64,000 bases of DNA, taken from assembly GCF_964355755.1 (NCBI RefSeq), contig NC_092670.1, positions 20,583,201-20,647,200 on the forward strand, written 5' to 3'. The translations under genes and the position numbers were made by a program. The notes under the pieces are model-generated. The model was not told where the DNA came from and did not search any database. It saw only the letters and a program-made list of their open reading frames with translations. Source of the DNA: Antedon mediterranea. Lineage: Eukaryota; Echinodermata; Crinoidea; Comatulida; Antedonidae. Of the stretch, positions 22,702-42,618 are shown in pieces (position 1 is the first letter of the stretch; every line of letters begins with the position of its first letter).

Positions 22702-25700
22702 ATGAATTTAATGCCTCAAAATCCACATGGTAACAATCTGTTGTACGCAGGTTTCAATCAAGATCATGGTTAGTTGTTTTATATTAGTTTTAAACGGTAT
22801 ATATTTGTGCGTTGTAAGCTAGGCCTAGGCTAGCCTATATAGGTAGGTACGAGTCAAAAAAATTCAAAGTCAATATTTTAAAATAAAATTGAAGTCAAAA
22901 AATCAGAAAAAACACATCATTTTCAAAAATGTAAATTTTATTAAAATTGACCAACTACTTGATTTTATATTAATTTTTTAAGTCTTAATTTTAATCGGAA
23001 TTTTGGTATAGGAATTGCTAATAAAATTGTGACCTTTTTATAATCGATTTTTTATATTTTGTATAAAACATGTACATCTTTTTACTTCATAGATTTTTTT
23101 TTTTATTTACAGAATGAAGCTTACAAAATTTACATTATGCTAGTAACATCCCCTCCCTACCACCCCCCCCCCCCCAATATTTATTTACATTACCCCCCCC
23201 CCCCCCCCCATCATGAGGAAAGAAAAGCCGGGTATGGGGTTTTATATTAATGTTCCATTTGATGTTGAATCACATTCAGTATATATAAATGTAAAGGATG
23301 TGTCCATTCTTCAAATCTACTACGTCATCAGGAAGTTCAGAATAGCCACTCAAAATCTGCCTATGTTTTCCTGGTTTTATTTCAACATTTCTTTTCTTTT
23401 TTTGCCTCATATTCAAACTACAGAAAATATTAAAAAATAAAAAACTGTTAATGTACTATAATATTATATTAATATGGTAGTGAAAAGGCAACAGTAAATA
23501 TAAATATATACTTAAAAAATACTACCACCACTGTGATAAAATGTAAATCTATCATTGAAATTAAAATGGAATATTGTTACTCACCAATTATATACAATTA
23601 AAGTTTGTAAAAATACCTGAAAAAATAAAACAAAACGCATTAGAAATGGCTTGATCATGTGATCTGCAAATGCATGAATGGGCCAATCAGCAGCCAATTA
23701 AATGACGTCATGCGATATTCATTCTAAACTGTTTGAGCGTCGGATTTTCAGATATTAGAAATCCACTTAAATCACCTATAATATGTTTATTATTTGTAAT
23801 TAAAACTACACAAAATTATCTAATAATATTTAAGTAATCTTATATTTTGAATATTCGGACACATATCGTTAATTTACACTAAAAATATTGCCGTTACATT
23901 ACTGTTACGAAAGCCGGTTTCGACTATCCCAATAAGCCTACCGCCGTCAGAGAGCACCCTCAGTGCTACAAGGTGGATCACGGCGATCGATCACATTCTA
24001 CCGTTAATTATCTAATTGCTTTCATATTTGGCAGAAATATACCTAAATACATGAACTACTGTTTACCGTCATAATAATTGAATTTATTACTTACGCAATG
24101 CTAAAAAAAACGACTTTTATTCGACTCAAATGTTCAAAACGCTGCCAAAAAATTTGACGATCACTGTTTGAAAAAAAAAAGTTTCCTGACCCAAGATTGA
24201 ACTTTAAATGACCTGTCTGACATCAAATCCCTTAAATTAGCCAATGAAAACTGATTTAAAAACGTAAATTCCCAAAGGGCTTGTTGCGCCCACACGATAT
24301 TTTGGGATCAAAAAAACAGAACCGAATTTAAGTGAGTGACGTCACAGATTGACTCGTACCTAGTAGGTACGAGTCAAAAAAATTCAAAGTCAATATTTTA
24401 AAATAAAATTGAAGTCAAAAAATCAGAAAAAACACATCATTTTCAAAAATGTAAATTTTATTAAAATTGACCAACTACTTGATTTTATATTAATTTTTTA
24501 AGTCTTAATTTTAATCGGAATTTTGGTATAGGAATTGCTAATAAAATTGTGACCTTTTTATAATCGATTTTTTATATTTTGTATAAAACATGTACATCTT
24601 TTTACTTCATAGATTTTTTTTTTTATTTACAGAATGAAGCTTACAAAATTTACATTATGCTAGTAACATCCCCTCCCTACCACCCCCCCCCCCCCAATAT
24701 TTATTTACATTACCCCCCCCCCCCCCCCCCCCCCCCATCATGAGGAAAGAAAAGCCGGGTATGGGGTTTTATATTAATGTTCCATTTGATGTTGAATCAC
24801 ATTCAGTATATATAAATGTAAAGGATGTGTCCATTCTTCAAATCTACTACGTCATCAGGAAGTTCAGAATAGCCACTCAAAATCTGCCTATGTTTTCCTG
24901 GTTTTATTTCAACATTTCTTTTCTTTTTTTGCCTCATATTCAAACTACAGAAAATATTAAAAAATAAAAAACTGTTAATGTACTATAATATTATATTAAT
25001 ATGGTAGTGAAAAGGCAACAGTAAATATAAATATATACTTAAAAAATACTACCACCACTGTGATAAAATGTAAATCTATCATTGAAATTAAAATGGAATA
25101 TTGTTACTCACCAATTATATACAATTAAAGTTTGTAAAAATACCTGAAAAAATAAAACAAAACGCATTAGAAATGGCTTGATCATGTGATCTGCAAATGC
25201 ATGAATGGGCCAATCAGCAGCCAATTAAATGACGTCATGCGATATTCATTCTAAACTGTTTGAGCGTCGGATTTTCAGATATTAGAAATCCACTTAAATC
25301 ACCTATAATATGTTTATTATTTGTAATTAAAACTACACAAAATTATCTAATAATATTTAAGTAATCTTATATTTTGAATATTCGGACACATATCGTTAAT
25401 TTACACTAAAAATATTGCCGTTACATTACTGTTACGAAAGCCGGTTTCGACTATCCCAATAAGCCTACCGCCGTCAGAGAGCACCCTCAGTGCTACAAGG
25501 TGGATCACGGCGATCGATCACATTCTACCGTTAATTATCTAATTGCTTTCATATTTGGCAGAAATATACCTAAATACATGAACTACTGTTTACCGTCATA
25601 ATAATTGAATTTATTACTTACGCAATGCTAAAAAAAACGACTTTTATTCGACTCAAATGTTCAAAACGCTGCCAAAAAATTTGACGATCACTGTTTGAAA

Positions 25701-28700
25701 AAAAAAAGTTTCCTGACCCAAGATTGAACTTTAAATGACCTGTCTGACATCAAATCCCTTAAATTAGCCAATGAAAACTGATTTAAAAACGTAAATTCCC
25801 AAAGGGCTTGTTGCGCCCACACGATATTTTGGGATCAAAAAAACAGAACCGAATTTAAGTGAGTGACGTCACAGATTGACTCGTACCTAATATAGGCTAT
25901 ATAGTATACCTAGCATTGCTGTCCGCAATGTTGAGTTAATTTGAGAGTGTGGACAGGGTCCGGGAAGAAGATCCTGTGCCAAATGTTTACTTCATTAATT
26001 ACTGGACCAGGGCCTAGCCTAGGATTTGTTCATGATTTTAAAAGTTGATATTAAATACGTAAATTATAAGTTGAATGGTATACTAACTTAGTAACTAGGC
26101 CTAGGCGTATGTAGGCCTATAATTATTCTGTTGGTAATAATAATAAATGCACAACTATTTAATAAAATTTTGGGTGATGGACATACTTTTACAGTTTACA
26201 CCTAGGCCTAACCCAATTTAAAAACATGTATCCAATGCGTGATGGTGAGTGACCTTGAAAATCTGTGCATGCCCATCCATCGATCCATGAATGTTTACAT
26301 TACATTAGGTACGAAATGCGAAGTAAAGCAGGGCTAAAGGGTCTTTCACACCTGTTCTGGCATGGTTCTGGTCTGGCGAATCGAACATCAATGTTTTGTT
26401 ATGCTTCCTGCGGCTATGCAACAATCGATATGACCATATCAGTGTGAAAACGAAAAATTGACGTTCAATTGGATTTTCCGGTGCCGGACTAGAACCGTGT
26501 CGGAACAGGCGTTAAAGACCCTTAATTCTTGTTCTCAATTAAGATGATCTGTGAGTAAACCAACAGGTCAAACAAGTCGGTGTTAAATTCTGTGTATGAA
26601 TACACAGTAGGATGGATGTAGACGTCATGTCATTTACAGTTCCTTTAGCCCCCACCCAATACTATATCTCTAGACATAACGTAATTATAATGTACATTCC
26701 CAGGTTGCTTTGCATGTGGTATGACAAATGGTTTCCGAGTTTATAATTGTGATCCATTGAAAGAAAAGGAGAAACAAGGTAAGATATTTTTACCAGTAGT
26801 ACGGTAGTCTGCATTATAATCCATATACAAATGACACTGTGTTGAAAGTAAAGAAAAATAGTAACAGTCTGTTTAAATCCTTAATAGTTTAACCATGTGT
26901 TATAGCATTTCATAATAAACATAGTTCCTCTATTATTAATCTTATACAAACTTATAATAACCTTGTAAAATTTATATTTTCTTTTCTGAAATAATGCATA
27001 AATTTATAAAACATGAAAACCTGAGATTACTATAGATCTTAAAATTGTTATAACTTTATAATTTAAATATATTTTTATATTCTAGAATAAGATTACCAAT
27101 TTCAGGATCTATTCTAATCTCTTTGTGCTGCCTGGGAAGTGGCACTATCTTGACCTACTACTATCCTTTCATCTTTAGCATTAATCACTACAAAAAACAA
27201 CTTCCCTATGTTTATTTTAGTATTGTTCATTTTACCATTTCTAAATTTTCTTTAAATATTGCCTGATTTGCTTTTTCTGTAAGATTTTTTATAGATCTGT
27301 TACCGATGCTAGACAGTTGTTATTTTCTGTTTTGTGTTGACGATATTTTAATTGAACCACGGAGGAAATATTCCTCCATGATTAAACCAATTTCCAAAAT
27401 AATGCTGGGATTCATATTTTGTTAGAGTTTATTGATGGTGGTATTGGTACTGTTGAGATGTTGTTTAGGTGCAATTATCTTGCATTGGTTGGTGGAGGAA
27501 AGAATCCTAATTACCCACCAAATAAAGGTAAGAATAAATAACAGAGATGGCTATTAAATTAAATAACTTACCTTTGATGTAGTGGAGTACATTTTATGTT
27601 AATACATTGTATTACCATACCTAATTTCTTATAAATTATAGAGGAAAGAAAAGGCCAAAAAGGAAGTTCAAAATTGAGGTTACCTTTACACAAGAAAAAT
27701 TAAAATATTTATTGTACAACATTAAATATGATCAAATTGGTTATTATATTTATATTAAAAATATTTTTATCTGTTTAGTTATGGTCTGGGATGATTTAAA
27801 GAAAAAACCTGTCATTGAATTAGACTTTTCAACAGAAGTACGAGCAGTCCGGTTAAGAAGAGATAGGTGTGTATTAAATTATTTTATATGCACCAGGCCT
27901 ATTTTATTGTCATCAAATATTAATAGATTTACCATATTAACATTTGAATTTTTTTTTACCTCCCTTTTATTTAATTTTTTACACATTTTTTTTCTCCAGA
28001 ATCGTTGTTGTCTTGGATACAATAATCAAAGTATACACATTTACCCAAAATCCTCAGCAACTTCATGTCTTTGAGACATGTCACAATCCAAAAGGTATAT
28101 AATTATGTATATTTAATTTTTTTCTTATATTTTCAATGTAACTAAGCTTTTACTTTTAATTTAATTCTACCAAACAGTAAGCTCATTGATATTAAACTGG
28201 TTTTTGTCTTTTATTACAGGTCTTTGCGTTCTTTGTCCAAGTAGCAATAACTCGTTATTAGCGTTTCCTGGTCGAAAGGCTGGTCACGTGCAAGTTGTAG
28301 ATTTAGCCAACACTGATAAACCCCCAACGGATATGGCCGCCCATGAGGGGCCACTCTCGTGCATATCACTCAACCTGCAGGGCAGTAGGCTAGCCACTGC
28401 CTCAGAAAAGGTAAGACACCATGCAGTATGCATCAGAATGATACTGAAGTTGCTGTAGTATATGTGTGCTGCAGTAATATTTCTGCAGTATGTATGCATC
28501 AGAATGATGCTGAAGTTGCTGTATTAATGCATCTGTGCAGTAATAGTTCTGCAGTATGTGCCTCAGAATCGTACTGTATGTGTGCTGCAGTAGTTTTGCA
28601 GCATGCCTCAGAATGATACTAAAGTTGCTGTAGTAATTCATCTGTGTGCTGCAGTAGTACTGCAGCATGCCTCAGAATGGTACTGAAGTTGCTGACATAG

Positions 28701-38800: not shown

Positions 38801-41800
38801 AATTTTACTTGCTTGGCTGCTATTGTTTCTTCATATGGTGTAAAATTCAGTTCAGTTTCAGTTGTATTTCACAGAGCATATTACACTATATATACATTTA
38901 TACTTATAAGTAATAATAAAACATTTGATTGTGTGTGGAGATTACAATAGGCCATAATGGTTATATTTAGGAGAGCTTCCCATACTTACATTCTTGAGAA
39001 GAACAATGCCACTGTTGCCAGTAACCTCATAAGTGGTCAAGAGTTCTGCATTACTGGTCATGCCAAATGGGATGTCGTCCATTCCACCGGCAGCTTCTAA
39101 AAATGCTTTGGCTTCTGCGCTTTCGATATCCTTGAAAAGACCAATGACAACTACTTCTTGGTCTTTACGCAACTTCTCTACGTCATCAGCGGATTCAAGA
39201 GTTGTTGCTGGTGGTCCGGTCTTCTTTTTAAGCCAGTTGATGATCTCCTTTGTTGTTCTTCCACCTTTAATAAATCATTGCATTACAAGTAATCTTAGAA
39301 TAAATTCTAATTTAATTATTTCAAATTAAAGTTTAAAAAGTTAATTATATCTACCTCCATACTCAGTTGCTTTTCCGTTTCGGAAGAACTTCAGAGTGGG
39401 ATAACCTCTGACCTCAAACTTGGCAGCCAAATCTGAGTTTTCTGTAGCATCAACCTTGCCAAGTTTAATTTCTGAGCCTTCTTTCTCAAGGTCCTGAGCA
39501 GCTTTGGCATATTCTGGTGCCAATGCTTTGCAGTGGCCACACCATGGAGCATCTACCAAAAAGAAACAAATATATTATTATTTATACTGAATCATTTCAA
39601 AGATTGAGTGATTTAAAAAAAGCCACAAACACAAAGCAAACTGCACGAATCCATATGGCTAAACTCATTTTGTAGATTTACTATCTATTCTATTGTAGCG
39701 CTACTTACTAAACAAATCAAAACCACAAGAGCACTCCCATACAATTACTACTCTAATGCATTTCCACAAGGAGAAAAAATAATTAAATTAAAGCCAAGAT
39801 AAAGATCTGATTAATACAGATTATGTTCACAATATGGCAATTTTCACGCTTCAGTAATTACTGAGGTTATTATACGTGGCAATTTCAAATGTATGTGAAT
39901 GTAGTGTGACCCTGTCCACATGGTGGTAATGTACAAATAATTGCTTAATTATTACTAATAATAATAATAATAATAATAAGCAGATGTTGAATACAACTTG
40001 TTCATCTTTTGTTTGAATGAAAGAAGAAAAAAATTGAAATGTTTGATGTAAACTGACTTTATTATAAAAAACAAAAATTACATTTTAATTAAAAATTATA
40101 AATGTTGAATTATGAAAGTATACACAATATAAATAATAACCAGCTGGTATATACAAGCATATGGAAGTTAGCAAATATTGATTGTTGTTATCAATGGACT
40201 GGTAAACGGCTTAGCAATTAAGGATGGCAATTAAAGGCCCTTCCCCAGTGTACTCAAGGAAGGTGCTATTACTCAAGCAGAGGAAGGTGCTACTATTCAA
40301 GAATGAACAAATATGATAGGCTAGGCTCATGGTCTTTTACTTATTGACCTTGAATCTCAATGAGTTAATTACAGTATCAAACTGCAAATATAATAAGGTT
40401 AAACAAACATTTCCAAAAAGCAACTTTTATAAGAAATTACCCTTGCAGGTATTATAGAGGACCACCAAATCTGTTCAGGAGAGATACACTGTATTGTCCC
40501 CGCATAAATGAACAAAATTCTGTTGATCAACAACAATACATGTTTTGAAAATGTATTACGAGTATCAAGTGACAATTCAAAATACTAGATGATTCACGCC
40601 TTATTTATAGCAACTAAAAGGATACATCTGATTAACCAAACAATGCAATAATTTGTCGAACATAATTTGAAGATTTAAAGAACAATAACTGGATTTAGAA
40701 AAGAAGAATAGCGAATTGTTCAACTGTGTTGATAGAGCACATGGAGTTATAAATGATAACAAGTACTTATATCCTGTTCTCAAAACTTCTGATCTACTAT
40801 CTAGGTCCAGCACAAGGCCACTATCTTAGTATCTTAGTAAAGACACATGTAACTAATTGATTTCAATCTGTATGGAATGTTCATTCATGTATACAAATAA
40901 TTGTTATATTTTTTTTTTACTTTCGTTTTTGTTTTAGAGAAGCGAGTGTATTCTTGTATTTGGTTTAAAGTTACTGTCTTTAAAAGATTGGACTCTTTCA
41001 CCGTTTCAAATTATCTTATAAACCTACATATTATTATTACATTTTTAAAAAATGGATAGCTTTATATTATAGTTCACTTCCAATCCAAGATTCCTGGTTT
41101 CAAGTCTTTGATCAAAAGTTAATACAACAAAAATAAAAAAAAGTTATTGTGCAAATCATTCAAATCTTGCATAATAATATTAACTGTGTAGGAGGCAAGT
41201 ACATGGCAATAATAATTACGCCGTGGTTAGGATTCCGGCACCGGAACTCAACTGCCCAGCGTTAGGGAATCCGACACGCTATTGCGCATGCCCAGAGCGA
41301 GGTAATCGGCGACTCTACATACTTCAACAGCGATGGATCATTTCATAGCTGCGCCACACGGCGAACTAGCCTAGATGCCTACTAATACTACGGGATCCAC
41401 TAATCTAGGCTAGGTCTACCAGTTAGACGTGACCAGTGGGGCCTATTTATTTTGTAATTAAAAAGTGGTTGCTTCATTCATATATAAACTTTATATCATT
41501 ATCAATTATATAATTACATGACTAGTTTTATGATTTTTCATAACGCATTATACTGTACATAACAACATGCAATCACAAGTTGATTTGTTGACGGCAGCCA
41601 CCGCGTGGATGTGAAAAAACTGTTCGGAAAGTCAGGGTCGCAACGCTAAAAACAGCATTACGATTCTTAGATAGATACTGATACTTATTAATATCATTAT
41701 AATTATTTTAACGCGTGGCGTAGTATTATTTTAATTATTAATTAATTCATTCATGTATGGCATAGGCCAAGTTTCATCCATCGCTCTCTCGCTCGCGCAA

Positions 41801-42618
41801 CGACTATTATTATATCTGGGCTACAGTAAATCCCTATAACACTCCGACTTTCTCTGTGGTGTGTGTGGCACTATATATTAGTGCAAGCTATAATTCACTT
41901 CCCAGAGCTCTGGGCATGCGCAATAGCGCGTCGGATTCCCTAACGGTGGGCAGTTGAGTTCCGGTGCCGGAATCCTAACCACGGCGTAATAATTATGATG
42001 GTAATATAAATATTTTATTTTTAAAAAGGTTTTTACTTTAGTGCAATGGTATACGATTCAGTCGGTTCTTTGAGCAATTCATAAAAGAAACTGTAATTAC
42101 AATGCACATCTTATTCGTATACAGTACTAAACGTTTTTAATGGTAATGTATACCACCACCAATCATATGCACTCATTTAACACCTCATCATCAACCCCCC
42201 ACATTGATCATTCATTGTCACATTTTGACATGACACCAGATTGATCACACGCAGGGCGGCTCAAAGCAAGGAATCATCTTCTGTGGCTGCTGAAAACCTC
42301 TACCTACACATTTTTTAAGCCTATCAAGCATTTATAGTAAATCTCTAGGCACAGGCTTAGATAATTTTAGGCGATAAGCTAGGCCTAGCCTAGGCCCAGT
42401 TCATTATAAATATCAACAAGCGACTTTTTTGAAAAATGAAATCGCTCGATCGTCGAGGCCCGAGGCTACTTACAGAATTCGACTAAGATAAATTCGGTTG
42501 AATCAATTACTTCTTGGAAGTTTGAATCTCCAAGCACAAGCACTCCTTCTTCTTTAGGAACATCTTCTGATAATGCAATGCTTGCAAAAGCAAAAATTAA
42601 TAGCGTAACAGCCTTCAT
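35889..42618 (-). CDS. P4HB: protein disulfide isomerase (PDIA1/P4HB type)
   Basis: The gene has ten exons, in coding order: 42474-42618, 39355-39552, 38990-39264, 38653-38757, 38249-38374, 37833-38033, 37326-37446, 36885-37063, 36511-36600 and 35889-35966. They give 505 aa (human 508). The enzyme forms, breaks and rearranges disulfides of secretory proteins in the ER, and P4HB is also the beta subunit of collagen prolyl 4-hydroxylase. Residues 1-17 are a signal peptide ([17 protein letters not shown]). Both thioredoxin active sites are intact: APWCGHCK with C53/C56 in domain a and C395/C398 in domain a'. In both, the intron splits the Tyr codon before APWCGHC. Domains b and b' lie between. 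The acidic tail ends in the ER-retention signal KDEL. A TATA box and an ERSE-like site lie upstream. Intron 1 (2.9 kb) holds a long-armed MITE. Confidence 0.97.
36163..36490 (+). repeat. 37-bp CTAGTGGG minisatellite in the last PDI intron
   Basis: About nine units of TTTCTTTTCCACTAGGCTAG plus TGGGTTTAAGATATCCA fill most of the intron between the last two coding exons. Each unit contains the imperfect palindrome CCACTAGGCTAGTGG. The repeats are contiguous with no spacers, unlike a CRISPR array. Confidence 0.9.
37147..37318. mobile_element. palindromic MITE, family A copy 6, expanded centre
   Basis: AGCTGTCTACACTTTGTGAC opens the element, and five or more ATCACTACCATATT units fill its centre. 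It ends directly against the donor of the PDI exon at 37326-37446 and has no right arm, so it sits within 10 bp of a functional splice site. Confidence 0.65.
37547..37658. mobile_element. palindromic MITE, family A copy 7
   Basis: Both arms are good: AGCTATGTCTACACTATCAA on the left and TTTGATAGTGTAGACAGAGCT on the right, read as left and right halves of one palindrome. Pogo-like end sequence lies on both sides (ACAGTACAACCTCTATTA and TGTCTCCTGAATAGGGGA), which suggests insertion into an older element. Confidence 0.7.
41215..41990. mobile_element. 776-bp MITE with 84-bp inverted arms (PDI intron 1)
   Basis: The arms 41215-41298 and 41907-41990 are inverse copies with two mismatches in 84 positions. 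They begin ATTACGCCGTGGTTAGGATT and include TTCCGGCACCGGAACTC and ATTGCGCATGCCCAGAGC. The arms are GC-rich against an AT-rich interior with no coding capacity. The flanks are AT-rich, so the target duplication cannot be fixed. Confidence 0.8.

Follow-up and report, generated by a model that had tools for sequence, protein, structure and literature searches.

Two copies of a gene-less element in WDR45B intron 1

The window, a stretch of 64,000 nucleotides from Antedon mediterranea, carries two direct, near-identical copies of a transposable element in the first intron of WDR45B (Table 1). The intron assignment, already made in a preliminary description of the window, was confirmed by tblastn with a human WDR45B sequence as the query, which placed the first two exons at 22702-22770 and 26703-26777. 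Sequence comparison likewise upheld the two copies as first delimited (22846-24360, 1515 bp, and 24366-25887, 1522 bp). Their length difference was correctly attributed to a poly-C tract, which has seven extra C residues in copy 2 and is the sole difference between the copies. The element contains no gene or open reading frame.

Table 1. Positions of the tandem pair and its parts in the window
Feature	Position	Strand	Basis or remark
Host intron 1 of WDR45B	22771..26702	+	tblastn exon boundaries, human WDR45B query
Left 7-bp target-site duplication, ATATAGG	22837..22843	.	Same as 25890-25896; boundary as in C10 and C3 copies
Copy 1, non-autonomous element, 1519 bp including terminal TAs	22844..24362	+	
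Left TIR of copy 1, TAGGTACGAGTCAA	22844..22857	+	Exact-end search
Left-end region of copy 1, homologous to element end at C3:13477649 beside P transposase gene	22846..23113	+	
Poly-C tract of copy 1, 17 C	23193..23209	+	
Right TIR of copy 1	24349..24362	-	
Spacer G, single base between copies	24363..24363	.	
Copy 2, 1526 bp including terminal TAs	24364..25889	+	
Left TIR of copy 2	24364..24377	+	
Poly-C tract of copy 2, 24 C	24713..24736	+	
Right TIR of copy 2	25876..25889	-	
Right 7-bp target-site duplication, ATATAGG	25890..25896	.	

The element ends in a 14-bp inverted repeat and duplicates 7 bp

The whole 354-Mb assembly was searched for exact ends of the element. Ten exact full ends were found, each with the sequence TAGGTACGAGTCAA and each from a member of the element's family. 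Because the TA within TAGGTACGAGTCAA is invariant at all ten, it is part of the element. The terminal inverted repeat (TIR) is therefore 14 bp long, and the boundaries originally drawn were 2 bp too short. The inverted ends themselves are real, and the description of a TIR element of the cut-and-paste type stands. The TA that had been taken for a target duplication outside the element instead lies inside it, with 7-bp duplications beyond, which rules out TA as the target duplication. Similarly, the TAGTA read as a spacer between the copies shrinks to one base, the G at 24363.

Two singleton copies, on C10 and C3, have the same 7-mer directly outside the TAGGTACGAGTCAA end on both sides (GCTCTAA at the C10 copy and TCATAGG at the C3 copy). 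From these exact flanking 7-mers we conclude that the target-site duplication is 7 bp. Members of the P superfamily make duplications of 7 to 8 bp, and 7 bp was found at C10, at C3 and around the window pair. hAT elements typically duplicate 8 bp; neither the C3 copy nor the window pair is flanked by an 8-bp match, and hAT entries with a 7-bp duplication are present in Repbase. The TA duplication outside the TIR that marks Tc1/mariner elements was not seen in the element.

The left end is related to a P-type element

Members of the P superfamily are marked by a P-type transposase (PF21787 or PF12017), encoded by the element or by its autonomous partner. The left end of the element aligns from its first base to C3:13477651-13477931 (66.7% over 294 bp, E 6e-25), and an nhmmer search with the family profile extended the left-end match at this locus (C3:13477649) to 374 bp (E 2.6e-14). 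The TIR of this P-adjacent end reads TAGGTATGATACAA, compared with TAGGTACGAGTCAA in the element. Immediately internal to the end, a disrupted transposase gene of the P superfamily runs on the opposite strand, its 3' end toward the TIR; it matches PF21787 (E 1.4e-13) and, weakly, the P-element HTH and zf-AD domains. Another fragment of a P transposase, in the same orientation, comes immediately after a second left-end-like stretch (C3:13484268-13484514). The surrounding region, C3:13474500-13496500, is a cluster of broken, duplicated P-type elements that includes a 1.4-kb direct duplication (95.6% identical).

We also noted two intact-looking P elements in the same genome, whose TIRs are perfect over at least 25 bp. 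One of them (C11:13871856-13878179, 6.3 kb) begins CATGGAGGTAT and is flanked by a 7-bp duplication, GATACCG; the other (C1:2820999-2826549, 5.6 kb) begins CTGAGACAAC and is flanked by CGGACAC, also 7 bp. The C11 transposase has an N-terminal zf-AD-like zinc finger just below the Pfam cutoff, and no THAP match was reported for it. Duplications of 7 bp are known from Galileo and other P-superfamily transposons, with 7 to 8 bp in Galileo (PMC4168063, PMC2775673).

The element was previously left unclassified. The homology of its left end to a sequence beside a P transposase, together with the 7-bp duplications at the two P elements and the 7 to 8 bp of Galileo, suggests that it represents a non-autonomous family of the P superfamily, an assignment that we regard as probable rather than proved. 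On the other side, the right end matched nothing in any P locus examined (most of these loci were seen in part), the right TIR was not found at C3:13477649, and the exact-end search of the assembly revealed no intact autonomous partner with the element's TIRs. The copy on C8 was considered as a coding partner and rejected, as its 5-kb insert consists of other repeats with no transposase reading frame of note.

A single duplication is shared by both copies

The order in the window is ATATAGG, element, G, element, ATATAGG, so that a single duplication flanks the pair. Taken individually, copy 1 is flanked by ATATAGG and GTAGGTA and copy 2 by TACCTAG and ATATAGG; neither has a duplication of its own. 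A 7/7 match is expected by chance with a probability of about 1.3e-4 from base composition, and in this AT-rich window 40 of 60,930 positions match 7/7 at equal spacing. Both inner TIRs are complete to their terminal base, and a single additional base lies between them. Since one 7-bp duplication is shared by both copies, we count the pair as one insertion, and it behaves as one insertion event.

The preliminary description had suggested insertion into an adjacent TA, which would mean two independent insertions of a TA-targeting element of the Tc1/mariner type. Each of the two copies is indeed bordered by TA on either side, but two insertions should have produced two 7-bp duplications, one per copy. 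The invariant TA at all ten exact family ends, the exact 7-bp duplications outside the TA at the singletons and the homology of the left end to the end of an element next to a P transposase gene also speak against this suggestion, which we consider hardly credible. A simple unequal crossing-over between the duplications would be expected to leave ATATAGG in the middle of the pair; its absence there argues against such an event.

The spacer G is identical to the base that borders the insertion on the left, the final G of ATATAGG. This identity would be accounted for if the pair had once had a complete middle ATATAGG, produced by two insertions into one target site or by exchange between duplications, which then lost six bases and kept the G. 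Such a history requires a second, base-exact deletion at the element border without microhomology, in copies that otherwise differ only in poly-C length, and we consider it improbable.

The copies are recent sisters and their junction is unique

The genome search that the preliminary description had called for revealed two further full copies, those on C10 and C3, and fragments on C7, C8 and C1; these genome copies respect the ends of the element. The C10 copy has four substitutions plus indels, and the C3 copy is 94% identical overall, counting a 64-bp internal deletion. No substitutions separate the two window copies, and both carry 278A, 792G and 890G; at these three sites the copies on C10 and C3 read G, C and A. 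From this absence of substitutions and the three shared variants, the window copies are, on sequence grounds, sisters and recent. The poly-C tract is hypervariable across copies: it has 17 or 24 C in the window, is interrupted in C10 and is deleted in C3. A repeat at 41218-41987 of the window, belonging to a separate repeat family, recurs beside the C3 copy (L045:1-472, 82-97% identity).

The junction between the window copies, CTCGTACCTA-G-TAGGTACGAG (junction stretch CCTAGTAGG), was found once in the 354-Mb assembly, and thus no donor dimer was observed. The search for copies and exact ends also detected no other dimer of the family in the assembly. The earlier remark that a tandem of a cut-and-paste-type element is unusual was correct. 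A dimer or multimer made elsewhere, from end-joined excised copies or a circle, could have been inserted as a 3-kb unit by its outermost ends with one 7-bp duplication. This would explain the single duplication around the pair and the intact outer TIRs, and it predicts an identical local structure. However, it leaves the junction with no counterpart elsewhere in the assembly and makes the agreement of the spacer G with the local left flanking base a one-in-four coincidence. We consider this origin rather unlikely.

An assembly duplication, also raised at the outset, would have doubled a single element in the contig. The copies are identical, and homopolymer length differences are common sequencing errors. 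Nevertheless, the break is base exact at both biological ends of the element, and the extra G would be absent from any ATATAGG-flanked single-copy allele; in addition, the assembly has only 18 contigs for 354 Mb, which suggests long reads. An artifact is therefore very unlikely.

Tandem joining is not routine in a comparison family

A high-copy family without a gene, the 2,032-bp TAGGTATCCCAATG family (C3:13486886-13488917, L047:3387-5418, and at least 36 further full-length copies), was used for comparison. It shares the first six TIR bases with the element, and 7-bp duplications were present in 10/10 tested copies, all of the form nTnnnAn. Many copies are 97-100% identical. One copy interrupts a LINE reverse-transcriptase reading frame (L047:2851-6065), and this frame thus offers a check on the 7-bp duplication of that copy. 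The family's similarity to the element lies in the inner right portion of the latter and is weak (64% over 151 bp, E 1e-5). It was dropped as a proxy for superfamily assignment, since three long intervals between its TIRs contained no transposase reading frame.

No head-to-tail junction within 30 bp was found among 193+180 exact TAGGTATCCCAATG TIR ends. These ends indicate that tandem joining is not routine, in a comparison family that may itself be of another superfamily.

Proposed origin of the tandem pair

We propose, at about even confidence, that the pair arose from a single insertion by sister-chromatid cuts of a P-type transposase and the joining of element ends. The 1.52-kb element, a probable non-autonomous member of the P superfamily, would have been inserted once, creating the 7-bp duplication ATATAGG. 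Once the DNA had been replicated, a P-type transposase supplied in trans would have cleaved opposite ends of the element on the two sister chromatids, the right end on one and the left on the other. End joining would then have united the two element ends with one base, G, in between. The product would be flank-ATATAGG-element-G-element-ATATAGG-flank, in which the outer duplication is kept and only the element is doubled. The P-type enzyme, the cuts on sister chromatids and the end joining are all steps that we infer, and a single dimer is in hand for the model. The spacer G is what cleavage one base beyond the end would leave, yet little can be proved from one base.

That ends can be drawn from two sister-chromatid copies is established by hybrid element insertion of P elements and alternative transposition of Ac (PMC3744419, PMC2775673). 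The pair resembles the products of hybrid element insertion and reversed-ends transposition (P, Ac/Ds) in that one event draws on the ends of two copies, and such events can give rise to tandem direct duplications (PMC3744419). They differ in having a new target, a new duplication and duplicated flanking DNA, whereas here the element alone is doubled and its ends are joined to each other. No duplication is present at the inner junction, nor any flanking DNA beyond one base between the copies, whereas alternative transposition would leave a new target duplication there and flanking DNA that is duplicated or deleted. The direct end-to-end joining of elements is our own proposal, beyond the P and Ac precedents.

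Comparison with other known systems

Like Galileo and the P superfamily, the element has 7-bp duplications, gene-less copies and one end homologous to a P-type element of this genome. Unlike Galileo, in which the TIRs are very long, it has a short TIR of 14 bp; its ends begin TAGGTA, and its three duplications do not fit GTANTAC. The P-MITEs of Anopheles gambiae are likewise gene-less with a terminal region related to a P element, and tandem P copies were proposed to be able to move en bloc (PMC1562414). Their duplications are 8 bp, compared with 7 bp here, and homology of the present element was detected at one end only.

Head-to-tail tandem dimers with abutted inverted ends, a spacer of a few bases and a single outer duplication are formed by bacterial insertion sequences of the IS30, IS21 and IS911 types. 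The window pair shares this head-to-tail arrangement, the abutted ends, the tiny spacer and the one outer duplication. The bacterial dimer is a regular intermediate, while the window pair is one case with no sign of being one.

Implications

The genome analyzed contains P-like elements that make 7-bp duplications. The shared duplication makes the pair the outcome of one insertion event, which excludes neighboring insertions and disfavors exchange through the duplications. If it was formed in place, the pair preserves a natural instance of element ends that were cut by transposase and then joined together, and it connects transposition by cut and paste with the origin of tandem arrays and of larger composite transposons. 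More tentatively, a P-type transposase may yield joins between sister copies that resemble signal joints, giving clean dimers with a single duplication that are mobile as a unit. If end joining of sister copies is the true origin, tandem arrays of cut-and-paste elements could arise without homologous recombination.
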